From Sphingobacterium hotanense (GTDB lineage: Bacteria; Bacteroidota; Bacteroidia; Sphingobacteriales; Sphingobacteriaceae): DNA of 64,000 bases. Below are positions 14,440-26,533 of the stretch, piece by piece. Location: assembly GCF_008274825.1 (NCBI RefSeq), contig NZ_CP030848.1:4401618-4465617 (forward strand). The letters run 5' to 3'. The notes under the pieces are model-generated. The model made no database searches, was not told the DNA's origin, and saw only the letters and a program-made list of their open reading frames with translations. Position 1 is the first letter of the stretch; each line of letters starts with the position of its first letter. A program made the position numbers and the translations under genes.

Positions 14440-14622
14440 ACGAACAAGAGTTCTTATATCTAGCTGAAAACAATATTGTTAAGGGAAACATATGATAATT
14501 GACTCGATGTTCCCTGAATTTTTGGTATTTCACAGCACGCCACATCCAGCCTCAAAACTCGATTAAGCCATCACGCTCATCAATCATAAGGCAAGTAAAT
14601 TCTGAGTAATAAAAATGGGACA
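14440..14622 (+). pseudogene. Decayed C-terminal end of a serine recombinase (older copy)
   Basis: In one frame this reads SMFPEFLVFHSTPH, a stop, AITLINHKASKF and a stop (TAA at 14564-14566, TGA at 14603-14605). It aligns position by position with SMFPEFLEFDGTRH and AIALIYQNNSKL in the remnant at 26121-26390. DNA identity is highest around CGATGTTCCC and GAATTTTTGG. That phrase pattern is typical of the C-terminus of Bacteroidota site-specific serine recombinases. No upstream catalytic domain survives. The remnant runs directly into a terminator-like sequence and a tRNA-Lys 3'-end remnant, the same order as at 26.4 kb. Confidence 0.6.
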
Positions 14623-14680
14623 AGTTTATTTTTCTAAACTTACCCCAAGTAGTGAACCCGCTGGTGCAAAACTCGAACCA
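14611..14680. repeat. Decayed copy of the tRNA-Lys 3' end plus its terminator (candidate attL)
   Basis: AAAAATGGGACAAGT at 14611-14625 is repeated exactly at 26376-26390. The following bases align with the terminator hairpin and the 3' strand of tRNA-Lys(CTT) at 26391-26435, at about three quarters of positions in a hand alignment. Similarity fades past the T loop, and the T stem no longer pairs, so this cannot be a working tRNA. A partial 3' tRNA copy facing an intact tRNA across a cargo region is the usual trace of tRNA-site integration. Confidence 0.6.
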
Positions 14681-15057
14681 TTTATTAGAAGATTTGAGGA
14701 GATTGAATAAGTTGAAAAAAGATGTAATCCAAAATGAAAACTGTGAATTCCTTTCGGCTTCTAAGCATAAATTAATTTGAAAAAGAAAACTGATATAGAG
14801 AAAATGAGGAGGAGTGAAAACATAAAATCAATTTTGTTTTTTCTTGATGAGTTGAAAATTTAATAGGGAAATTTTATAGAGAGATTACTGGCGAATTCTG
14901 AAACTATTTGAAAGATTTTGAAATGGTTTGTTATTTATAAATTTTTTAAAAATAATTATAGTTAGATAAAAAGCTACATTGTATTATCTCTTATGTTTTT
15001 TATATTGAATTATTGTAATAGATTTGAAGCATTTATGTATAGCTATCTTTAATATAT
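14681..15057. other. AT-rich gap without a gene
   Basis: This stretch is visibly poorer in G and C than its surroundings. It has only very short open frames, such as an 18-codon one starting near 14803. I see no tRNA, hairpin terminator or conserved promoter. It is the left margin of the inferred island, just upstream of the DUF389 gene. Confidence 0.5.
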
Positions 15058-16356
15058 ATGATTAAATTTATACGTTTTTTCAATCTTCATTATGGTGAGG
15101 ACGAGAAGGAAAAGGTCTTGGAAAATGTTATTTCCAATATTTCTTTTCGTGGAGCAAACCTTTGGATATTGGCTTGTGCCATCGTCATTGCTTCTGTAGG
15201 TTTAAATGTTAATTCAACTGCTGTTATTATCGGAGCAATGCTTATTTCGCCCTTAATGGGGCCTATTGTAGGCGCAGGATTCGCATTAGGAACATATGAC
15301 TTTGATTTGTTGAAGAAATCCGCTAAAAACCTTGCTATCGCTACTGCAGTTAGTTTACTGGTTTCTTTTTTATATTTTCTATTAAGTCCATTTAAGGAAG
15401 CGCAGTCAGAACTCCTAGCGCGTACCTCTCCAAATATCTATGATGTGCTGATTGCCTTTTTTGGAGGTTTGGTCGGCGTTATTGCCATTACACGGAAAGA
15501 GAAAGGCAATCCCATTCCAGGTGTCGCGATTGCAACAGCATTAATGCCTCCTCTTTGTACTGCTGGTTACGGCCTTGCTATTGGAAATTTCAGTTATTTT
15601 GGAGGAGCAATTTACCTTTATACAATTAACTGTTTTTTTATTTGTATATCCACTTTCCTGATTGTCAAACTGCTTAAATATCCTAAGGTAAAATTTGTAG
15701 ATACCTTACGTGAAAAGAGAATTACTCGAACGATTTCTGCACTTATTGTTATTATGCTTGTTCCTAGCTTTTACTTGGCTTATAGTCTTTTGCAGGAACG
15801 TAAGTTTGTCCAACAGGTTAACGCTTTTATCGAAAATGAATTTACCAATAAAGGGTATACACTAATTTATGAAAAGACGCACTTTAACAATAGAGCCAAA
15901 AAAATTGAACTAGCCTTTCTTGATAAGCGATTCGGCAACGATGAAATTAAAGATCTTCAAGCCCGTTTGGGTAGCTACCGTCTTGACGGAACTGAGTTAC
16001 TAATTCGGCAGGATACCAGCGACTTGAAAGGGGATATTCTTGCTGAAATACAAAAGCAATCACAGCATGTTTCTGAGAAAGACATTACGATTCAGAACCT
16101 CCGAAATGAGCTAGCAGCTTATACATTTAAAGATAGAGAAACCATTAAAGAGATTACCGCTCTGTACCCTGACCTTGCTCCATTTTCAATTGGTAAGCAG
16201 ACTGTTTTCGTGAATGCCGATAGCAGCTTCAATAGGACGGTACTACTGTATGATGCTGATAAAGAGCTCCCGAAAGAACAATTAAATCGCTTGTCGTCTT
16301 GGCTTAGTGTGAAGTTGAAATCAGACAGCGTCTTGGTCATGCAAAGTGCTGATTGA
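15058..16356 (+). CDS. DUF389 family membrane protein
   Basis: The 432-residue protein carries the DUF389 signature NSTAVIIGAMLISPLMGPIV near residues 51-70, then GIPGVAIATALMPPLC-like text (NPIPGVAIATALMPPLCTAG) near residue 155. About six to seven membrane helices occupy residues 30-240. The C-terminal 190 residues are soluble, with a predicted helical section and no known catalytic motif. The family's transport substrate is unknown. It stands alone on the plus strand at the left end of the ion-homeostasis island, so a role in ion or solute balance is an inference from neighbours. Confidence 0.87.
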   Translation: MIKFIRFFNLHYGEDEKEKVLENVISNISFRGANLWILACAIVIASVGLNVNSTAVIIGAMLISPLMGPIVGAGFALGTYDFDLLKKSAKNLAIATAVSLLVSFLYFLLSPFKEAQSELLARTSPNIYDVLIAFFGGLVGVIAITRKEKGNPIPGVAIATALMPPLCTAGYGLAIGNFSYFGGAIYLYTINCFFICISTFLIVKLLKYPKVKFVDTLREKRITRTISALIVIMLVPSFYLAYSLLQERKFVQQVNAFIENEFTNKGYTLIYEKTHFNNRAKKIELAFLDKRFGNDEIKDLQARLGSYRLDGTELLIRQDTSDLKGDILAEIQKQSQHVSEKDITIQNLRNELAAYTFKDRETIKEITALYPDLAPFSIGKQTVFVNADSSFNRTVLLYDADKELPKEQLNRLSSWLSVKLKSDSVLVMQSAD

Positions 16357-16969
16357 TCGTTGTGCTAATTTAGACCAGTACAGTTGACCTTATTGCAAGG
16401 GAGGGGACACCTATTATGGCAAAATTATTCAATGGAAAATTTGGTCAATATTTTGCTTTTTTTCTAAATATTGAATTTGTTTTTGGTGAATTTTTATTCT
16501 ATGGTTTGATAATTAACTTAAGATGGTTTGCTTTTTCTTTACGTGAAACATAGATGTGTTACGTAAATGCGCAAAACGATCTACTAGATCTTTTATGATT
16601 TGGGTCAAGCCAAGACTATCCTCGTCTTGTAGTAATGGGTTTATACAGTGAAGAGGAAAGTTAATCTGGCACTTGCTGAATTTTAAGTGGAAAATATCTG
16701 ACAATGAAAGAAAATAGGCGGATTTGTACCCTGATGGTTTCAATTTTTATTGCGATATCTACTTTTGTGATGATTTGGCAATGCTTAAAGTATCTATTTA
16801 ACTAAAATCAACATACGCTTTATTAAATCCCTAAACATTTCTTTAATTATTCGCGTTAAAATGTGTTTTCACTGTTATTTATAATAAAAAAATCATCGCC
16901 CAATTGATTATAGAACGATGATTAATAAAATGAGAATTACTTTCTTTTCTTAGATTGAATAGTTATCGT
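16357..16969. other. Gap of 613 bases with no assignable gene
   Basis: The only open frame of note is a 76-codon one on the minus strand (16513-16743), whose product I cannot match to any family. The region is AT-rich and lies between the DUF389 gene and the 3' end of nhaA. It may hold decayed insertion debris, but I found no inverted-repeat ends or transposase motifs. Confidence 0.4.
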
Positions 16970-18163
16970 TTATTTAATTGCGGTTCTAGAGATAGCGTTC
17001 CAGTTTTTTCCAGACCTCAAAACTAAATATCCAACCACACCCGCGAGCAGCGAAGTGAGCAGAATTGCTAATTTTGCTTCCGCGATATGAATGACAGATT
17101 CAAAGGATAGTAAAGCGATAAAAATAGACATGGTAAAGCCTATACCAGCTAATAACCCAACTCCAAGAATATGTCTCCAAGTTGAATTTTCGGGTAATGT
17201 AGACAGCTTTAATTTTTGACATAGAAAAGCGGTGAGTAAAATCCCGATAGGTTTACCTAATAATAAGCCTAGGGATATTCCCAATCCCAAAGATGAAGTT
17301 AAGCCCTGTACCATAGAACTTTCTAAGGTAATATTTGTATTTGCGAAGGCAAAGATAGGGATGATTAAAAGGTTAACCGGTTTTACCAATGCATGCTCCA
17401 GTCGTTCTAACGGTGATTCTATGTCCGTGTCGTTGGTAGGGATGGTCAAGGCTACTAATACACCTGCTATAGTTGCATGAATACCCGAGTGATGAACAAA
17501 ATACCATACAAAAACCCCTGGAATTAAATAAAGGTAAGGATTTTGTATGTTTAGTCTGTTCATAGCGATTAATACGGCTAATGCTATTGCGGCATAACCA
17601 AGGTACGTTGTCTCGATACCCGACGAATAGAAAAACGCAATGACTAAAATCGCGATAAGGTCGTCAACAATGGCTAATGCAGCTAAAAATATTTTCAGAC
17701 TAGCTGGCACCTTGTTGCCGAGCAAACTGATTACGGCTAGAGCGAATGCGATATCTGTCGCCATTGGAATTCCCCATCCCGACGCGGCCTCAGATCCGGC
17801 GTTCAAGCTTAAATAGACTAATGCTGGAACAACAGCTCCCCCCAATGCGCACAATATGGGTAGAGAGGCTTTCTTAGGTGAAGATAGTTCTCCTTCGACA
17901 ATTTCTCGTTTGATTTCCAGCCCTACCATTAGGAAGAAGATGGCCATCAATCCATCGTTTATCCATAAGAGGATGGAATATTTCAAGTGAATCGACTCAT
18001 TTTCAAATCCCAATTGTCGATCAAGTAGTTGTTGCAAAGGTTGAGCAAAACTGCTGTTGGCTACAATCATAGAAATAATGACAGCGAAAAATAGCAAGGT
18101 ACCTCCTGCATTACTAGAACGGAGGAAATTTTTAAATACGTTGAGGTTAATCAATTGAGGCAT
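16970..18163 (-). CDS. nhaA: Na+/H+ antiporter NhaA
   Basis: NhaA exports sodium in exchange for protons across the inner membrane, supporting pH and salt tolerance. The 397-residue protein has the expected dozen helices. It has the family phrases GLEIKREIVEGELS near residue 82, WGIPMATDIAFALAVISLLG near 130, and ALAIVDDLIAILVIAFF near 163, where the paired aspartates bind the ion. The length is complete. It starts three bases after the stop of the AGCS symporter gene and is probably last in a minus-strand operon trkH-trkA-AGCS-nhaA. Confidence 0.95.
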   Translation of the reverse strand: MPQLINLNVFKNFLRSSNAGGTLLFFAVIISMIVANSSFAQPLQQLLDRQLGFENESIHLKYSILLWINDGLMAIFFLMVGLEIKREIVEGELSSPKKASLPILCALGGAVVPALVYLSLNAGSEAASGWGIPMATDIAFALAVISLLGNKVPASLKIFLAALAIVDDLIAILVIAFFYSSGIETTYLGYAAIALAVLIAMNRLNIQNPYLYLIPGVFVWYFVHHSGIHATIAGVLVALTIPTNDTDIESPLERLEHALVKPVNLLIIPIFAFANTNITLESSMVQGLTSSLGLGISLGLLLGKPIGILLTAFLCQKLKLSTLPENSTWRHILGVGLLAGIGFTMSIFIALLSFESVIHIAEAKLAILLTSLLAGVVGYLVLRSGKNWNAISRTAIK

Positions 18164-18166
18164 AAT

Positions 18167-19606
18167 TTATTTTTTAGATTCCCAAATAGGAACATTCGGT
18201 ATATTATAGGTTTTGTTATAAAATCGAGGATTTTGACCTACGCTTTTTTGCATAGCATAATCTTGTTCTAAAAGAACTACTTTTTTATGGAGTAATAGAA
18301 TTGCAAGAATGTTGAGCCAGGCCATCAACCCAACACCGATGTCGCCCAATTGCCATGCTGTAGATGCTGTCGTTATACAGCCTTGGAAAATTGAAACTAA
18401 TAGCAAGAAGCGTAATCCCCAAATATATAGGCTGTTCTTTTGTTCCTGGAATAGAAAGTTAACATTTGTTTCGGCGATATAATAATACGCCATAATGGTA
18501 GTAAATGCAAAAAATGCTAAGGCAATCGCTACAAAAGAACTTCCTAATAGCGGAAAGTGGAGAGAAACGGCCATTTGGGTAAATGTGGGGCCCATTTCAA
18601 TACCTTTCAAATTTTCAATGATAAAATTACCATCTGCACCCTGAACGTTGTATTGTCCCGTAAATAATATCATCAAGGCCGTGGCCGTACATACGAACAG
18701 TGTGTCGACATAAACCGAAAATCCTTGAACAAGCCCCTGTTTGAAGGGATGATCTACTTCAGCCGCCGCAGCAGCGTGCGGTGCGGTGCCTTGCCCAGCT
18801 TCGTTACTGTAAATTCCTCTCTTTACACCCCAAGAAATGGCGGCGCCTACGATACCGCCAAAGGTAGCGTCCAAACTGAAGGCAGATCGGAAAATCAGAG
18901 AAAATACGGATGGAATTTCTTGATAGTTGATGCCAATGATCACGAGTGCCATTAAAATATAAATACCTGCCATAAAAGGAACGACTAATTCAGAAACCTT
19001 CCCAATGCGTTTTACCCCTCCAACTATAATGAGTCCCATGAGAATAATTAATATCCCAGCGGTTACAAATCCTGAAGTGCCAAATGCAGTATCCATGGCT
19101 ACAGCGATGCTGTTTGATTGGACGCTAGGTAATAGGAAGCCTGTGCTTACGATGGTTACAACTGCAAAAATTATAGCAAAAGCTTTGTTTTTCAAGCCAT
19201 AGTGAATATAATAAGCTGGACCGCCTCGATATTCGCCATTAATTTCTTGTTTATATAGCTGACCTAATGTGGCCTCGACAATGGCTGAGGCACTCCCAAC
19301 AAAGGCTATGACCCACATCCAAAATATTGCTCCTGGGCCTCCCATCCCTATGGCTGTTGCTACTCCGGCAATGTTTCCTGTTCCTACCCGGCCAGATATT
19401 GCCAAGGAAAAAGCTTGGAAAGATGAAATGCCTTTTGACGATGCTTTACCCGAGAATAATAGACGAATCATTTCATTGAGGTAGCGCAATTGAGGCAATC
19501 GGAAACGAATTGTAAAATAGGTTCCTGTCAAAAGACAGAGGTAAACCAATAATTCCGACCAAACCAACTTATAGATATTATCAACGATTTTTTGCAGTAT
19601 TTCCAT
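18167..19606 (-). CDS. Sodium:alanine/glycine symporter (AGCS family)
   Basis: This is a sodium-coupled amino acid importer. The roughly 479-residue protein begins MEILQKIVDNIYKLVW and shows AGCS landmarks: GKASSKGISSFQAFSLAISG, RVGTGNIAGVATAIGMGGPG, VEATLGQLYKQEINGEYRGG and NEAGQGTAPHAAAAAEVDHP. About eleven membrane helices are present. I chose the ATG at about 19606, because the frame upstream of it up to a TTG at 19690 does not look like the family. In an osmotic island, import of alanine or glycine could help with compatible-solute supply or with sodium coupling. Confidence 0.9.
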   Translation of the reverse strand: MEILQKIVDNIYKLVWSELLVYLCLLTGTYFTIRFRLPQLRYLNEMIRLLFSGKASSKGISSFQAFSLAISGRVGTGNIAGVATAIGMGGPGAIFWMWVIAFVGSASAIVEATLGQLYKQEINGEYRGGPAYYIHYGLKNKAFAIIFAVVTIVSTGFLLPSVQSNSIAVAMDTAFGTSGFVTAGILIILMGLIIVGGVKRIGKVSELVVPFMAGIYILMALVIIGINYQEIPSVFSLIFRSAFSLDATFGGIVGAAISWGVKRGIYSNEAGQGTAPHAAAAAEVDHPFKQGLVQGFSVYVDTLFVCTATALMILFTGQYNVQGADGNFIIENLKGIEMGPTFTQMAVSLHFPLLGSSFVAIALAFFAFTTIMAYYYIAETNVNFLFQEQKNSLYIWGLRFLLLVSIFQGCITTASTAWQLGDIGVGLMAWLNILAILLLHKKVVLLEQDYAMQKSVGQNPRFYNKTYNIPNVPIWESKK

Positions 19607-19703
19607 AGACGATGGCTGCAAAATATAAAAAGATGACCGATTAAGTAGAATTATTATATAGATTATATTTATAAAGTTTAATACCTGCAATAATATTTTG
19701 TAA

Positions 19704-20362
19704 TTAACGTTTCAGAAATTCCTTAATGTTTCGGTTATCGCCATAAATCACAATGATTTCACCTTGTTGCAATACAGTGTCTGGTTTTGGTATTCCATGT
19801 AAGACCGTAGTCACGATCTTACTTTTTCCAATCAATGAATCGCGCTCTGTTTTTTTGAGTATGGTAAGTACCAAAATTTCATAATGTTCCCGGAACCCAA
19901 TTTCTTGGATTGAACGGCCAACATACTTTTCAGGAACGACAGCTTCCACTATGCTATAATTCGAATTTAGCTCAATTTTTTTGACCAACGCTCTGCAGTT
20001 TCTTCTTCGGGATGTACGATCTCTGAAACTCCTATCGCGTTCAGAACCTTTTCATGCAGATTGTTCACCGCACGGCTGATGAGCCGTTTGACCCGTGCTT
20101 CTTTACAAAGCGCGGTGACCATGATGTTGGCTCCCTCGTTTTCTCCTATGGCCACAACGACAATATCGGTATTCTTAAGAGGGAGGGAGGTAAAAGCAAC
20201 GGGATCGGACGCGTCGATTGCTATGGTATGTGTGATGTGTTCCTTCAACGCGGTAATGCGCTCAAGTTTGATGTCTACACCAATGACTTCGTTTCCCTGA
20301 GCCGTGAGTTTTATAGCCAGTGATGCCCCAAAATTTCCCAATCCTATAATGATGAATTTCAT
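19704..20362 (-). pseudogene. trkA: K+ uptake regulator TrkA, split by a frameshift
   Basis: TrkA gates the TrkH potassium channel by binding NAD(H) or nucleotides. The first part (19967-20362) is an RCK-N domain with the Rossmann motif IIIGLGNFGASLA and GVDIKLERITAL, ending ETAERWSKKLS and a stop. The second part (19704-19988, frame shifted) continues KKIELNSNYSIVEAVVP into an RCK-C domain ending IIVIYGDNRNIKEFLKR. The break is at a run of seven A on the coding strand; eight would restore SKKIELNSNYS. Full length would be about 219 residues, normal for a single-unit TrkA. Either the gene is mutated or the homopolymer was miscounted. It follows trkH by four bases. Confidence 0.8.
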
Positions 20363-20366
20363 ATCT

Positions 20367-21743
20367 TTAATTTATGGTAAGTTCTTCTTTCGCGTACCGG
20401 TAATTGGTGAATTTTACTTTCTTGAAGATTGCGATCATAATAGAAAGCATGGTAACCCGTCCAATAAACATTAAAGCAACTAATATAACTTTGCTCGCCG
20501 TGGAAAGCTTAAAGGTAATCCCTAGTGTGAGGCCTACCGTGCTATAAGCCGAGAAACATTCAAAGGCAATCTGCATCAGCGTGAACTCTTTTTCAAATGC
20601 GCTGATGTGCAAAATGCACATACCAATAATAAATAAGGAGAGAGTCATCGTGGCAAATGCTCTTTTTAGGGTTATATCTGCAATTTCCCTTCTATATATT
20701 TCCAACCGCTCTTTTCCGCGTGCCAAGCTGAGGATATTCAATACTGCAACAGCAAATGTACTGGTCTTTATACCGCCGCCCGTTGAATTAGGAGATGCTC
20801 CGATCCACATCAAAAAGATGATAAAGAGAATGCTGGGAACTTGCAGCTGCGCAAAGTCAATGCTGTTATATCCCGCCGTTCGTGGTGTACTGGCCGTAAA
20901 CAATGCAGTTACCCAACGTCCAAATGTTCCGTGTTCGCTGAAAGCCGCTTCACCTTCCAGCAGCCAAAGAAGAATAGTGGCAAATACAGTGATGCCCAGG
21001 GTTGTTACTAGGTTGATCTTACTATTGATATTGATCACCCATGGTTTGTATGTATTTTGATTTTCGACATACCGTTTGATTATTCTGTTGGCCAAATGCT
21101 AGAGGTAACGCAGCAGGTTGATGACAATCGGGAAACCCAAGCCACCAATTACAAACAGCCCAATGATTATCAGTTGAAAAGGGTAGTTGAACAGGACGGA
21201 CTTTTCTGCCAGTCCAAGCGGAAGGGTCGAAAATCCGGCGTTGCAAAAGGAAGAGATAGAGTGGAAAATACAAAAGAAAAGGTGTCGACCAACTCCCAAA
21301 ACTTTGAATTCTGGTGTACAGATATAAAGTAAGAGTGCGCCAGCTGCCTCGATGGAGAAAGTGATGAGGATGATACGCTTTAACAACAGGAATACCTCTC
21401 CCAATTTTTCCGAGTTGGCCATGTCCCTACTGGCCAATTGGTTTTCATAGGATGACCCGCCCTTAAAGAAATAAGCAAAATAGGAGGCAAATGTCAATAT
21501 TCCCAGTCCACCAAGCTGTATGAGGAACATTATGATGAGCTTACCCAAGGGAGTAAATGCAGATGCCGTATCGACCACGATCAGTCCTGTTACACATACT
21601 GCACTTGTGGCTGTAAAGAGTGCGTCGACCCAAGCGATAGGATGGGAGCTGGAAATTGGAAGGGACAACAAAAAAGTCCCCGCCATAATCAGAAAAATAA
21701 AACTGCCGGCAAAAGGTTGCGCGGGGTTGTAGAATCTCTTCAA
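20367..21743 (-). pseudogene. trkH: K+ channel subunit TrkH, interrupted by an amber stop
   Basis: TrkH forms the membrane path for potassium uptake. The first 214 codons hold the family starts DALFTATSAVCVTGLIVVDT and HSISSFCNAGFSTLPLGL, two of the four selectivity-filter repeats, ending INLLRYL and TAG at 21099-21101. The same frame resumes at once with HLANRIIKRYVENQ and runs on through FTASTPRTAGYNS, GGGIKTSTFAV and SAYSTVGLTLGI, the remaining repeats. The total of about 458 codons is normal for TrkH. A single base change from AAG or CAG would explain the stop. The downstream half could be translated from a TTG at 21095, but half a channel would not work. Confidence 0.82.
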
Positions 21744-21911
21744 ATCTCTTCGGTTTATTCAAAGTTATAAAATCATGCTTAGTTCCCTAAAATGAAATTA
21801 ATACTCTCTAATATTTGCTTATTAGTTTATTTTTACCTAACTTTATTGCTCATTAATTATTTAACGGCAGAATCCAGACCTATATTCTATTCTGCAAAAA
21901 ATCCCGAAATA

Positions 21912-22901
21912 TTGATTGAAGTAAGTGTTGTTGGCGGTGGAAGTTGGGCTACTGCTTTAGTAAAAATATTGACCGAAAATAAAATCCCAACCTATTGGTA
22001 CCTTCGAAGAAAGGAGCAAGTTAAGCATATCATGGAGCATGGAAGTAATCCAAGTTATCTTCCGCAGGTTAAGCTAGATCTTTTATTTACTTTTCCATCT
22101 GATAACCTGCAGCAAGTGGTATCTCGAGCAAGAATTATCATTTTTGCTGTTCCAAGCGACGCCTTGCAACAAGTATGTAATGGCATTGACCCTTCCCTTT
22201 TTAAAAATAAGATTGTTTTATCTGCGATGAAAGGAACTGTTGGAAAGAGCAATGAAATTCCTAGTAGTTTTCTAAGCAGAACGTTGAAAATACCAATGGA
22301 TGAAATCGTTTCAATTGCAGGCCCTTGCCATTCGGAAGAAATTGCAGAAAGCAAACCAACTTACCTGAGTTTATCGTGCGTAAACCAAGATACAGTTGAT
22401 AAATTAAGTATGTTGTTCAGAAGACCTTACATCCAAGTTCGAAGTAACAGCGACCCAATTGGGCTCGGCTATGCATCTATTTATAAAAATGTATTGGGTA
22501 TAGCTAGCGGTATGGCCAAAGGTTTAGGTTATGGAGATAATTTCATGGCAGTACTCGTTAGCAATGCTCTGTTGGAAATGCAAAATATTCTTGATTCTAC
22601 ACTCGGTAAGCAAAGGGAAATATTAAATTCTACTTACACAGGTGATCTGTTGGTTACCGGATATTCGAACAACAGTCGAAACCGACGTTTTGGAGAATTA
22701 ATAGCCCAAGGCCACTCGGCTGAAGCAGCAGTAAATAAATTAGGAATGGTGGCTGAAGGCTACCGGGCAGCACAGGGACTTTTTGGCTATGCGAACGAGC
22801 AAGGGTTGAATTTACCTATACTGGAATCTATATATGAAATCCTATACCGAAACCAATCAGTCGAATCTAAATTTAAGGAATTGGAGGAAACATTAATATG
22901 A
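21912..22901 (+). CDS. gpsA: NAD(P)H-dependent glycerol-3-phosphate dehydrogenase
   Basis: GpsA reduces dihydroxyacetone phosphate to sn-glycerol-3-phosphate. From the TTG at 21912 the product is about 329 residues, with the nucleotide-binding motif VSVVGGGSWATALV at the N-terminus, FAVPSDALQQV, LSAMKGTV, SIAGPCHSEEIA, the active-site lysine region GYASIYKNVLGIASGMAKGL, and TYTGDLLVTGYSNNSRNRRFG. An ATG at 21792 would add 40 unusual hydrophobic residues, so I prefer the TTG, which puts the Rossmann strand at residue 3. The last four bases overlap the start of the glucosylglycerol-phosphate synthase gene. Since that enzyme needs glycerol-3-phosphate as acceptor, this copy is probably dedicated to osmolyte synthesis rather than phospholipids. 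Confidence 0.92.
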   Translation: MIEVSVVGGGSWATALVKILTENKIPTYWYLRRKEQVKHIMEHGSNPSYLPQVKLDLLFTFPSDNLQQVVSRARIIIFAVPSDALQQVCNGIDPSLFKNKIVLSAMKGTVGKSNEIPSSFLSRTLKIPMDEIVSIAGPCHSEEIAESKPTYLSLSCVNQDTVDKLSMLFRRPYIQVRSNSDPIGLGYASIYKNVLGIASGMAKGLGYGDNFMAVLVSNALLEMQNILDSTLGKQREILNSTYTGDLLVTGYSNNSRNRRFGELIAQGHSAEAAVNKLGMVAEGYRAAQGLFGYANEQGLNLPILESIYEILYRNQSVESKFKELEETLI

Positions 22902-25153
22902 TGCTATTAGCTACAGACTTAGACGGAACTTTTCTTGGCGGATCAATCGAAGATCGCTTAAAACTCTATCAGATTATTAAAGAAAATAAGGATATCCAAT
23001 TGGTTTTTGTAACAGGGCGCGGATTGGAATCGGTTATCCCTTTGCTAAATGATCCGATAATCCCAACCCCAAATTTTATAATCGCCGACGTAGGGGCCAC
23101 CATTTGTGATGGTACTACACTCACTTCTATTGATTCCATTCAACATGAAATCGAACGCAATTGGCCCTCTGTGTATGAACTTCAGGAGGATTTCAGAGGA
23201 ATTCCTAGTTTAATATACCAACGAGTTCCTCAACAGCGGCGTTGTTCGTATTATTACGATACAAGTACCGATCTTGCTAAAGTTCAAAAAATTGCTGAGA
23301 AACGAGGTTGTGATGTAGTTACATCCGTGGATAAATATTTGGATATTCTTCCTAAAGGTGTAAATAAAGGAAGTACACTAAAAAAATTGGTGACTCTTTT
23401 GGGTATTCCTGCCAATAGGGTGTTGGTCGCTGGAGACACATTGAACGACCTATCTCTGTTTCATACAGAGTTTCAAGGTGTTGTCGTAGGAGAGTCGGAA
23501 ATTGCACTCCTAGAAGCGACTGCTAATCTATTGAATGTATATCAGGCACGCCATGCTGGTGCTGGTGGAATTCTTGAATCCATGAAGAAAAATAAGGAAT
23601 TTGCAGCCTATGTAAATGATGTCATTGAAGAACCAATTCTTCGGCAAAATTCAAATGATCGACAGCTGGTCATGGTTTACCACCGGCTTCCATATGAACG
23701 TATGATGGTCGATGGAAAAGTTAAGCAAGTTCCTCCCCAAAGCCCCAATGGCATAATCCCTTCTTTATTAGGACTCTTTGAAAAGGGGAGATCCGGCATT
23801 TGGATTGGTGAGGAAGTAGATCTGGGGGTTGGAAATAAGGATGTGAGGAATAAGGTTGATGTTGATAAATTCCCTAACCTAGATGTTTCACCTATCTCAC
23901 TTTCCCAAAAGGATATTGATAAATTTTATAGGGTATTCTCCAAGGAGGCATTTTGGCCAACAATATTTTCCTTTGTCGATAAGGCTAAATTTAACCATCT
24001 GGACTGGGAACATTATTTGAAAATCAACAGATTATTTGCTAAGCGAATAGCGCAGGAAGCTGAACCTGAAGCGTTGGTTTGGATTCACGAATATAACCTG
24101 TGGATGGTTCCATCGTACTTGAAAACGATGCGTCCAGATCTCAAAATTGGTTTCTTTCATCATACGGCATTTCCTGCGGCGGATATTTTTAACACGATAC
24201 CATGGAGACGGGAAATCATCGGGAGCTTGCTGATGTGTGACTTTATCAGTTTTCATATTCCGCGGTATGTCGAGAACTTTATTGATGTACTTCGCAGCCA
24301 TACTCCGTTTAAGCGATTAAAAACGATAAATGTTTCCAAACAATTTCTTACATACAGCATGGCGCTTGGAGTCGAGGAGATGACCAAAATAATTTCGGTG
24401 GAAGGACGAACGATTCGATTGGGTGCACAACCGGTTGGTGTGAATTATGGACTGATAGAAGGTTTGTTAGCTAAAGAAGAAATCGCCAAGCGAATTGAAA
24501 CTTACAAATTGGAGGTCGCAAATAAAGAAATCAAACGTATTGTGTCTATTGAGAGGATGGACTATGTGAAGGGGCCGTTAGAAAAGGTACTGGCCTTTGG
24601 GGAATTTCTGAAGGAATACCCAGAATTTCAAGGAAAGGTCGAACTGATCAACGTCTGTACTCCACCATCAAAGGGCATGCGTATCTATGATAAGATCAGG
24701 GATCAAGTTAATCAGGCTGTGGGAGAAATCAATGGTAAGTATGCTAGGTTGGACTGGACGCCAATCCAATATTTCTTCCAAGCACTTCCATTTGAAGAGG
24801 TTCTTATTCAGTATGCCCTGGCCGATGTGGCATGGATTACCCCGCTAAGAGACGGTCTGAACCTAGTCTCCAAAGAGTTTATCGCCACACATGGGCTCTT
24901 GAACCAGTCGGGTGTTTTGGTCCTCTCGGAATTTGCGGGAGCATCCGTCGAACTACCATATTGTGTCCCCACAAATCCATATGATCGCCGAAGCATGATT
25001 GAGTCCTTACATCAGGCTCTTACCATGCAGGAAGATGAAGCACATTTGCGAATTAAAAGGTCTCTTCAACAAATTAAGCACTATGACATTCATTACTGGG
25101 GGGAGGATTTTGTAAGAGAACTTGAGGAGAGTAACAACACTAACGAAGTTTAA
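22898..25153 (+). CDS. Bifunctional glucosylglycerol-phosphate phosphatase/synthase (GgpPS-type)
   Basis: The 751-residue fusion has an N-terminal HAD phosphatase (LLATDLDGTFLGG with Asp7 and Asp9, VFVTGRGLESV, PNFIIADVGATI, GDTLNDLSLF; residues 1-245) and a C-terminal GT20 synthase (about 255-745). The GT20 part follows glucosylglycerol-phosphate synthase rather than OtsA: GFFHHTAFPAADIFNTIPWR, FISFHIPRYVENF, RLDWTPIQYFFQALPFEEV and ITPLRDGLNLVSKEF. It would join ADP-glucose to glycerol-3-phosphate and then remove the phosphate to give glucosylglycerol, a compatible solute. Domain order is the reverse of OtsA-OtsB fusions and like GgpPS of Stenotrophomonas. Database tools may mislabel it as trehalose synthase. 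gpsA upstream (four-base overlap) supplies the acceptor, and mscS follows 11 bases later. Confidence 0.85.
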   Translation: MMLLATDLDGTFLGGSIEDRLKLYQIIKENKDIQLVFVTGRGLESVIPLLNDPIIPTPNFIIADVGATICDGTTLTSIDSIQHEIERNWPSVYELQEDFRGIPSLIYQRVPQQRRCSYYYDTSTDLAKVQKIAEKRGCDVVTSVDKYLDILPKGVNKGSTLKKLVTLLGIPANRVLVAGDTLNDLSLFHTEFQGVVVGESEIALLEATANLLNVYQARHAGAGGILESMKKNKEFAAYVNDVIEEPILRQNSNDRQLVMVYHRLPYERMMVDGKVKQVPPQSPNGIIPSLLGLFEKGRSGIWIGEEVDLGVGNKDVRNKVDVDKFPNLDVSPISLSQKDIDKFYRVFSKEAFWPTIFSFVDKAKFNHLDWEHYLKINRLFAKRIAQEAEPEALVWIHEYNLWMVPSYLKTMRPDLKIGFFHHTAFPAADIFNTIPWRREIIGSLLMCDFISFHIPRYVENFIDVLRSHTPFKRLKTINVSKQFLTYSMALGVEEMTKIISVEGRTIRLGAQPVGVNYGLIEGLLAKEEIAKRIETYKLEVANKEIKRIVSIERMDYVKGPLEKVLAFGEFLKEYPEFQGKVELINVCTPPSKGMRIYDKIRDQVNQAVGEINGKYARLDWTPIQYFFQALPFEEVLIQYALADVAWITPLRDGLNLVSKEFIATHGLLNQSGVLVLSEFAGASVELPYCVPTNPYDRRSMIESLHQALTMQEDEAHLRIKRSLQQIKHYDIHYWGEDFVRELEESNNTNEV

Positions 25154-25164
25154 AATTAAGACAC

Positions 25165-26010
25165 ATGAAAGTAGAACAATTGGAAAATGTAGAAGGTAAA
25201 ATCGAGAAATTTATAGATAGTGCTATTGCATATGCTCCCATTTTAATCAGTTCATTGGTGTCCGCAGCACTGGTACTGTTCCTAGGATTATGGCTGATTC
25301 GTATGGTTCGAAAGCTAGTGGATCGGATTTTCGTGAAAAGAGATATTGAACCGAGCATTCGGACATTTCTTGGTAACTTGATTAACTGGATACTAAAAGT
25401 AATGCTCTTTATTGTGGTCGTTAGCCAATTGGGTGTGCAAACTTCGACATTTATTGCGGTGATTGGTGCGGCCGGCCTAGCAATTGGCATGTCTTTACAA
25501 GGATCATTGTCTAATTTTGCTGGCGGGGTATTGATCTTACTATTCAAACCTTTTAGAGTCGGTGATTATATCTCTTCTTCAACTGGTGTAGATGGAACGG
25601 TTAAGGTCATAGATATTTTTAACACCAAACTCGTGACGCCTCAAAATCAGTTGGTTGTCATCCCAAATGGGGAGCTCTCGAATAGTAATATTACCAACTA
25701 TACTGAGCTCGGGACACGACGAACTTGGTTTGATATCGGCGTGTCGTATGAAGCTGATTTGCGAAAAGCGAAAACGATCTTATTGGACATCATAAATAAA
25801 AACGAACATGCATTTTCGGACCCTGCGCCGGATGTAGTCGTAACGAACCTTGGAGATAGTGCTATCAATCTCTCTATTCGGGTTACTACCAATAATGAAA
25901 ACTTCTGGACGATGCAGGAGCAGCTTATCATCAGCTGTAAAGAAGCTCTTGACAATGCAGGTATTGAGATACCCTTTCCGCAAGCAGATATCCATTTCAA
26001 GCAGAATTAA
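25165..26010 (+). CDS. mscS: Small-conductance mechanosensitive channel (MscS)
   Basis: MscS opens under membrane tension to release solutes during osmotic downshift. The 281-residue protein has three N-terminal helices, the pore helix TM3 (IGAAGLAIGMSLQGSLSNFAGG, glycine-alanine packed, near residue 105), then the beta domain with KPFRVGDYI and VVIPNGELSNSNITNY and the C-terminal cage ending EIPFPQADIHFKQN. Length is standard. Sitting last in the gpsA-ggpPS operon, it pairs synthesis of a compatible solute with a release valve. This pairing is inferred from the operon. Confidence 0.94.
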   Translation: MKVEQLENVEGKIEKFIDSAIAYAPILISSLVSAALVLFLGLWLIRMVRKLVDRIFVKRDIEPSIRTFLGNLINWILKVMLFIVVVSQLGVQTSTFIAVIGAAGLAIGMSLQGSLSNFAGGVLILLFKPFRVGDYISSSTGVDGTVKVIDIFNTKLVTPQNQLVVIPNGELSNSNITNYTELGTRRTWFDIGVSYEADLRKAKTILLDIINKNEHAFSDPAPDVVVTNLGDSAINLSIRVTTNNENFWTMQEQLIISCKEALDNAGIEIPFPQADIHFKQN

Positions 26011-26120
26011 CGGTAGATAAATTACTTGTCGCTTAAATCCGATATTTTTTAAAGTCCGTACAATTGGTAATTCATACTAATCTAAAAATTGAAAACATTT
26101 GAATTGCCTTTCAGGGCTGA

Positions 26121-26390
26121 ACGAATAGTTTTGGAAAGAAGATTAACGACTTGGCAGTAGTCGGAACAGAGATTAAAGACTTAGTGGCTTCCACCTTAAA
26201 AAAGGTCGCAGACATTGATAGACGCTATGAAAACGGCGATATTGAAGAAAAAAGGCTTATAGTGGTTTCGATGTTCCCCGAATTTTTGGAATTTGACGGA
26301 ACAAGACATCAAACTCCAAGACGAAATTCTGCGATTGCTCTTATTTATCAGAATAACAGCAAGTTACAGGGTAAAAAAAATGGGACAAGT
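26121..26390 (+). pseudogene. C-terminal remnant of a serine recombinase
   Basis: This frame (about 85 codons) reads INDLAVVGTEIKDLV, KKVADIDRRYENGDIEEKRL, SMFPEFLEFDGTRHQTPRRN and AIALIYQNNSKLQGKKNGTS. It matches the C-terminal tail of large Bacteroidota serine recombinases (a helix with YENGDIEEKR then xSxFPExLxFDG). A TGA at 26118-26120 cuts it off from any upstream part, and the catalytic resolvase domain is absent. The frame runs into the tRNA-Lys terminator without a stop, as expected where an integrase gene ends at the attachment site. It sits between mscS and tRNA-Lys and supports insertion of the island at this tRNA. Confidence 0.65.
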
Positions 26391-26440
26391 CTATCGTTTT
26401 TAGACTTGTCCCGAGAAGTGACCCCGCTGAGGCTCGAACT
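26376..26440. repeat. Tandem-island right repeat: terminator plus tRNA-Lys 3' end (candidate attR)
   Basis: This intact copy of the repeat pairs with the decayed copy at 14611-14680. It covers AAAAATGGGACAAGT, the terminator hairpin and the tRNA 3' strand up to the T loop. The roughly 11.7 kb between the two copies holds the osmotic and ion genes. Confidence 0.6.
26382..26412 (-). terminator. Terminator of tRNA-Lys
   Basis: GGGACAAGTCTA at 26382-26393 pairs perfectly with TAGACTTGTCCC at 26401-26412 around a seven-base loop. On the minus strand it is followed by a run of T. It lies six bases from the tRNA 3' end. Confidence 0.85.
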
Positions 26441-26491
26441 CAGGACCCACAGATTAAGAGTCTGTTGCTCTACCAACTGAGCTACGAAGTC
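26419..26491 (-). tRNA. tRNA-Lys (anticodon CTT)
   Basis: This 73-base minus-strand gene folds as a full cloverleaf. The acceptor is GACTTCG with CGGGGTC (two G-T pairs), followed by a D arm with AGCTCAGTTGGTAGAGC. The anticodon stem ACAGA/TCTGT holds loop CTCTTAA, and the T stem CTGAG/CTCAG holds loop TTCGAGC. Discriminator base A follows, and CCA is not encoded. It has its own promoter and terminator and marks the right end of the inferred genomic island. Confidence 0.95.
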
Positions 26492-26502
26492 AATTAACAC
26501 TT

Positions 26503-26533
26503 CAAAGGTACAAGACCTCGCAAAAAAATCAAA
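26503..26533 (-). promoter_or_regulatory. tRNA-Lys promoter
   Basis: On the minus strand TTTG (26530-26533), a 19-base spacer and TACCTTTG (26503-26510) match both boxes and the spacing of the Bacteroidota primary sigma promoter. Transcription would start just before the tRNA. Confidence 0.8.

Follow-up and report, generated by a model that had tools for sequence, protein, structure and literature searches.

What left the C-terminal end of a serine recombinase gene at each side of a block of osmotic-stress genes, one of the two running straight into a tRNA-Lys gene? The question arises in a 64,000-nucleotide stretch of Sphingobacterium hotanense (contig NZ_CP030848.1, positions 4,401,618 to 4,465,617; hereafter the window), whose source genome is a single contig of 4.49 Mb. 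We find that the window very probably holds the scar of a tandem integration by Bacteroidota elements whose large serine recombinases use the extreme 3′ end of tRNA genes. By the sequence, the recombinase codons just before the tRNA encode the intrinsic terminator of that tRNA on the opposite strand, so that insertion swaps the native terminator for one borne in recombinase coding sequence. Element 1 denotes the first insertion, represented by the left copy, and element 2 the second, represented by the right copy; G and L numbers label genomes and loci.

Window positions 14440-14680 and 26200-26440 aligned at 71.6% identity over 162 nt (E 1e-19); the local alignment score was 92, the highest among 500 shuffles being 30. 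The two stretches are thus related, as the initial annotation had proposed, and its shared text SMFPEFL, AI(T/A)LI and AAAAATGGGACAAGT is present in both copies in the same order. Intact orthologues of the right copy (531 amino acids) stand at the same tRNA-Lys(CTT) in G074 and G046, and the last 89 residues of the right copy are 92% and 89% identical to them. In a search with an intact orthologue (L034/L084), we found PF00239 (Resolvase, 1e-23), PF07508 (Recombinase, 4e-10) and PF13408 (Zn_ribbon_recom, 6e-7), in the domain order of the large serine recombinases phiC31, A118, TP901-1 and TndX; TP901-1 and TndX were also weakly similar to the family by tblastn. Because a Pfam scan of the window remnant by itself gave no domain match, the identity of the window copies rests on these orthologues, by which both copies are read as C-termini of large serine recombinases, as the initial annotation had suggested. 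The right copy retains approximately residue 411 to the end, having lost some 410 N-terminal codons, and contains one TGA, and the left copy retains only about the last 55 to 60 codons, with in-frame stops, in what remains of element 1 (about 190 bp); both enzymes are therefore dead. The features at the two copies are as follows.

14465-14651, plus strand: decayed C-terminal stub of the element 1 recombinase, with in-frame stops, once adjoining the tRNA (71% identity over 258 nt to a truncated recombinase of Sphingobacterium phlebotomi; 71.6% to the right copy)
14615-14646, minus strand: putative element 1 terminator hairpin, 13 pairs including 2 G-U, −14.3 kcal/mol, short T run (fold and alignment)
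26115-26417, plus strand: remnant of the element 2 recombinase, query residues from about 411 onward, one TGA (orthologue comparison)
26373-26412, minus strand: predicted intrinsic terminator of tRNA-Lys within the recombinase tail, 12-bp perfect stem at 26382-26412 and T8 at 26373-26380 (fold)
26418-26491, minus strand: tRNA-Lys(CTT), intact, the target gene; its antisense gives about 20 codons and a stop at 26478-26480
26418-26421, unstranded: GTGA at the tRNA 3′ end, probable crossover region on the attL side (attL compared with far-end cores)

The recombinase gene and the tRNA are transcribed convergently, and the former continues through the latter: the hairpin at 26382-26412 lies inside the recombinase frame, in the codons KKNGTSLSFLDLSR, and the frame stops within the tRNA. 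Read on the tRNA strand, the stem and the T run follow directly past the tRNA 3′ end, so that a GC-containing stem and a T run lie on the transcribed strand, as in an intrinsic terminator. There is strong support in the sequence for reading the hairpin as the intrinsic terminator of the tRNA on the opposite strand and not as a separate element. The initial annotation had described the same series at both sides, a recombinase C-terminus, a hairpin and a tRNA 3′ end; the recombinase and the hairpin were confirmed at both, the hairpin proved to lie in codons, and a tRNA end was found only on the right. Between the two copies the hairpin shows a compensatory change, with GTTTA/TAAAC in element 1 and GTCTA/TAGAC in the right copy.

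We then compared the surroundings of tRNA-Lys(CTT) in 30 genomes. A hairpin of the recombinase type was present in 10, only 2 of which had an intact recombinase, and several fossils had kept the hairpin while losing nearly the whole recombinase gene; where no element was present, the terminators were different. The sequence displaced to the far end of the G074 element agreed at 34/34 nt with the native tRNA-Lys terminator found in a different species (L033), which argues that integration parts the tRNA from its old terminator and brings a new one. The displaced sequence in G036 matched native tRNA-Lys terminators of other species at 86 to 90%. The hairpin would stop tRNA transcription in vivo and hence be kept while the elements decay. 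At tRNA-Lys(TTT), a different arrangement was seen in four Sphingobacterium loci (L215, L217, L222 and L225): tandem units of approximately 130 to 150 bp lie downstream, each combining the terminal 16 nt of the tRNA with a hairpin that has A and T runs, and resembling the rtT repeats of Escherichia coli.

The same arrangement extends across Bacteroidota. The 80 relatives from many genera that a named-genome scan produced, together with 48 loci from a genus search and fetched regions, made 128 loci, in 110 of which a tRNA lay near the recombinase. In 103 of the 110, the recombinase frame reached its stop inside the tRNA (78) or past it (25), and the targets included tRNA-Lys, Pro, Arg, Leu, Ser, Glu, Gln, Met, Val, Cys and Phe, as well as the transfer-messenger RNA (tmRNA) in Myroides. 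At the tmRNA gene of Myroides sp. 1354 (L127), the recombinase is 85% identical to the Lys type and has the same hairpin. The source genome itself has a nearly complete family recombinase at tRNA-Glu (L109, C1:53257-54777), with one TAA and a dual-coded terminator of its own. Since some of the 128 loci were the same contig reached by two routes, the argument is carried by a dereplicated set of 42 recombinase tails less than 80% alike. On the tRNA strand, each of the 42 had a terminator-like hairpin followed by a T run (−13.8 to −22.5 kcal/mol), and a terminator in the opposite direction was found in only one. When synonymous codons were randomised 300 times for each tail, a terminator as good as the native one arose in 0/300 trials for 40 of the 42 and in 1/300 for the other two. 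The proportion of synonymous differences (pS) was threefold lower in the tail than upstream (0.105 versus 0.316), while the proportion of non-synonymous differences was similar in the two (pN; 0.045 versus 0.050), a pattern to be expected if the same bases serve a second function. A random phylum-wide draw at 27 to 49% identity gave the same picture: 15 of 18 loci overlapped a tRNA, and 14 of those 15 had the terminator.

A hairpin beside the crossover could instead be a binding site of the recombinase, an arm of the element attachment site (attP), and the conservation of a GGACA/TGTCC part in many members is in keeping with that. Against it, the T run lies only on the tRNA-strand side, as just described. 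Stem sequences also differ while pairing is retained: both sides changed in 9 of 11 pairs, and the covariation score was 0.495 against 0.193 in shuffled data (0/500). Distant recombinases (24 to 28% identity) have unrelated tails with different stems at the same place. Add the fossils that keep the hairpin without a recombinase, and the fact that the replaced sequence is itself a terminator, and the binding-site explanation becomes improbable.

Even less probable is that the frame through the hairpin and the tRNA merely lacks stops by chance, the true protein ending earlier. Such a view would fit a tail that is predicted to be disordered, with predicted local distance difference test (pLDDT) values of 34 to 51 from residue 501 on, and that has a pN/pS of only 0.43. 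Against it stand the overlap in 103 of 110 loci, the lack of any earlier in-frame stop in those 103 tails (a set picked by stop position), and strong purifying selection on the far-end codons of the elements, which share this phase and are described below. We therefore read the tail as recombinase coding sequence that doubles as the terminator of the tRNA.

How the left copy came to lie at the other end of the cargo is answered by the sequence that follows it. Past GTGA at 14652, the window matches the far termini of elements at about 20 sites in the genus over approximately 66 nt (14652-14717 and on). Several of these elements have an intact recombinase at a tRNA as their other end: G074 (10.8 kb), G046 (48.6 kb, with conjugation genes), G059 (56 kb), G070 (44 kb), G016 (60 kb) and G061 (49 kb); for G070 and for G016, a single in-frame TAA was recorded close to where the match ends. 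Two features of the window correspond to this terminus.

14652-14664, plus strand: predicted left attachment junction (attR type), GTGA and attP-type core GTGAACCCGCTGG (same junction at about 20 element far ends)
14652-14780, plus strand: far terminus of element 2, read as native recombinase C-terminal codons VNPLVQNSNHLLEDLRRLNKLKKDVIQNENCEFLSASKHKLI and a stop, severed by integration (open frame in 20/20 arms; pN/pS 0.06)

In most far termini, the base before GTGA closes a terminator-like hairpin, and in the window the tail of element 1 stands there instead, which identifies a tandem junction: a chimera at 14465-14717 of the element 1 remnant and the element 2 terminus. On this reading, element 1 integrated at tRNA-Lys and was then reduced to a stub acting as the tRNA terminator; element 2 inserted at the same site and moved the stub to its own far end. 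Going by the sequence, element 2 spans approximately 14652 to 26421 (11.8 kb) and entered where the element 1 stub served as terminator. The window thus shows what a tRNA-targeted island has, a recombinase tail at tRNA-Lys and a defined terminus at 14652. The initial annotation had likewise proposed that a first element decayed and a related second one inserted at the same tRNA site, pushing the first leftward, and this part of it is borne out by the junction and by G432 and G371, which have the same tandem order in a younger form, the intact second recombinase lying at tRNA-Lys 50 and 37 kb away. Its reading of the left copy as a decayed tRNA-Lys end was rejected, the sequence past GTGA matching element termini and not tRNA.

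That both recombinases are dead and the copies 72% alike would also suit a segmental duplication or rearrangement in place of two integrations. Against this, the join between the left copy and the terminus that closes other elements falls precisely at GTGA, and G432 and G371 have the same order with an intact second recombinase; moreover, other recombinases resemble the left copy no less than the right copy does. We consider duplication very unlikely and retain two successive integrations.

The two ends of element 2 do not share a long, perfect repeat of the tRNA 3′ end, the common part being GTGA and a partial core only. Most far cores retain the attP-type GTGAACCC, and the tRNA sequence is retained on the tRNA side (attL); the crossover would accordingly fall within GTGA. 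On this basis, the crossover appears to be short and to lie at the extreme 3′ end of the tRNA. The long shared tail, previously regarded as unusual for a serine recombinase crossover, is accounted for as recombinase coding sequence and terminator. A long core of 46 to 50 bp reaching the anticodon (in G035, G059 and others) was rejected as an attachment site of this family, the shared core being much shorter; these repeats probably belong to other islands. Extra copies of 46 to 56 bp of the tRNA-Lys(CTT) 3′ half were seen elsewhere in G035, G059, G088, G007, G045, G069 and G020, several of them 13 to 38 kb away, which suggests that other islands, perhaps with tyrosine integrases, are stacked at the same tRNA-Lys(CTT).

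The far terminus also bears on the recombinase itself. It was open in the recombinase phase in 20/20 arms, for 29 to 56 codons beginning VNPLVQNSNSFLEDLRRLNQLKD. Variation by codon position was concentrated in the third (77 versus 28 and 17), and pN/pS, 0.06 in the recombinase frame, was 1.37 and 6.14 when the other two frames were used. A recombinase stub is contiguous in frame with the far tail in G043 (S. phlebotomi), G371, G432 and G090. Because the far terminus reads in frame as a recombinase C-terminus under such constraint, the sequence places attP of the Lys family within the recombinase gene. Once the element has integrated, the native 29 to 56 C-terminal residues remain at its far end and the gene gains about 20 tRNA-antisense codons; joining the two ends of the element restores one recombinase frame. 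Integration, as read from these arms, would thus exchange a conserved tail for an antisense one. An attP inside an open frame, as in the integration-dependent gene switch of mycobacteriophage BPs, is indicated here by the in-frame arms and the contiguous forms, and the protein products are predicted. We hypothesize that, through this exchange of tails, circular and integrated elements have different forms of the recombinase, and that the exchange has a regulatory role. More tentatively, the recombinase might be its own integration-dependent switch, a proposal that we put at somewhat short of even: the circle form would have the conserved tail and the integrated form the antisense tail, with altered activity or direction, and the junction would always give the tRNA a new terminator.

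Plasmid and phage collections yielded only distant recombinase relatives (about 22 to 28% identity), and the attP form was not found in them. A second recombinase class (37 to 41% identity; L207-L212; in the source genome at C1, approximately 2992 to 3001 kb) has its own stop codon; in some members a separate downstream frame, KKRRQPLLGVSLS, has a terminator-like hairpin, and in two members this frame is fused to a Lys-type far arm.

Several observations weigh against this account. The codon counts pair related sequences greedily. One overlapping locus in the random draw (L254) scored no terminator, and the far termini L264 and L273 lack a clear native terminator on their left. G074 and G036 are the only cases in which the displaced sequence was matched to a known tRNA-Lys(CTT) terminator. 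A few far cores read GTGATCCC, so the crossover could lie slightly further in. An intact, full-length recombinase contiguous with the Lys-type C-tail was not found, the contiguous forms being N-terminally truncated stubs. In the apparent attP form of other subfamilies, the tails are short and not conserved, and the claim of a functional C-tail is therefore limited to the Lys family.

Archaeal integrases of the SSV type are tyrosine recombinases with attP inside the integrase gene, and integration at a tRNA splits off a larger part of that gene than here. They are alike in that the integrase gene is split at a tRNA, and differ in recombinase type and in the size of the part split off; we know of no dual-coded tRNA terminator among them. 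In BPs, attP lies inside the repressor gene and integration changes the C-terminus of the product, the viral form having a degradation tag (PMC4557955). The window family resembles BPs in its attP within coding sequence and in the altered C-terminus, but here the split gene is the recombinase and the native tail is conserved. Integrative mobilizable elements (IMEs) with serine recombinases are described as disrupting dispensable genes (PMC5704250), whereas here the target is a tRNA 3′ end, which the gene overlaps and whose terminator it encodes. In the KplE1 prophage study, which concerns an integrase promoter overlapping attL, integrase genes are sorted into "InTr shapes" according to how they are oriented relative to the neighbouring tRNA (PMC2951348); the window family corresponds to the convergent arrangement, and an integrase 3′-end overlap with a tRNA and its terminator is not among the features described in the sections of that study consulted. 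At tRNA-Lys of Streptococcus agalactiae, tandems of integrative and conjugative elements or IMEs have a second element accreted beside a decayed one, with tyrosine integrases and different attachment sites, and terminator replacement is not described in the sections consulted (PMC5704250). Integration at tRNA genes, attP inside a gene (the BPs repressor) and tandem accretion are thus already known. A literature search on integrase-tRNA overlap, dual-coded terminators and attP in an integrase gene, which was not exhaustive, found no description of a recombinase gene that encodes the terminator of its target and is split by its own integration.

If correct, this arrangement gives a physical account of how essential tRNA genes can be used harmlessly, since both the tRNA sequence and the transcription stop would be supplied, antisense in the integrase gene. 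It would also explain the odd C-termini of the open frames of these recombinases (such as those ending in GFEPRTHTLKVYCSTS), and tail exchange on integration offers a testable, built-in basis for directionality. The survey brings out a large and widely distributed group of serine integrases that target tRNA 3′ ends, and predicts their chromosomal attachment sites (attB); such enzymes are wanted as genome-integration tools.

Between the two copies lies the osmotic cargo.

15058-26010, unstranded: DUF389, NhaA, Na/Ala symporter, TrkA and TrkH (both broken), GpsA, trehalose-6-phosphate synthase/phosphatase and MscS (open frames and Pfam; GpsA named from sequence)

The initial annotation had proposed a search of close relatives for an empty site. 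We found no exact one, with the GH cluster joined directly to the tRNA, in relatives: G057, which has an NYN gene 97% identical, and G030 hold other DNA in the interval. For G001, the 19.9 kb of contig that was fetched contained no tRNA. Parts of the cargo module occur in several other Sphingobacterium genomes, and close relatives of the trehalose-6-phosphate synthase are found in many members of the genus, while the closest relative, G057, holds only a distant paralogue; the cargo is an ordinary, genus-wide module. The element boundaries could be genuine and the module nevertheless a later arrival, having come into the decayed element from another place in the same genome. The occurrence of DUF389, Trk, GpsA, trehalose-6-phosphate synthase and MscS genes in other Sphingobacterium with no tRNA in the 14 to 20 kb fetched would allow this, as would the lack of a second close module copy in the source genome and of any other mobility gene in element 2. 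Islands of this recombinase family do, however, carry unrelated cargo: at the same tRNA in G074, for example, the 10.8-kb element (L034, C23 at 232 to 243 kb) has apparent carotenoid synthesis and photolyase genes, as read from the sequence. We regard later import as less likely than not, though a more serious alternative than those above. Within the window cargo (19704-21743), TrkH is broken by an in-frame stop near 21099 and TrkA by a frameshift near 19970-19988.

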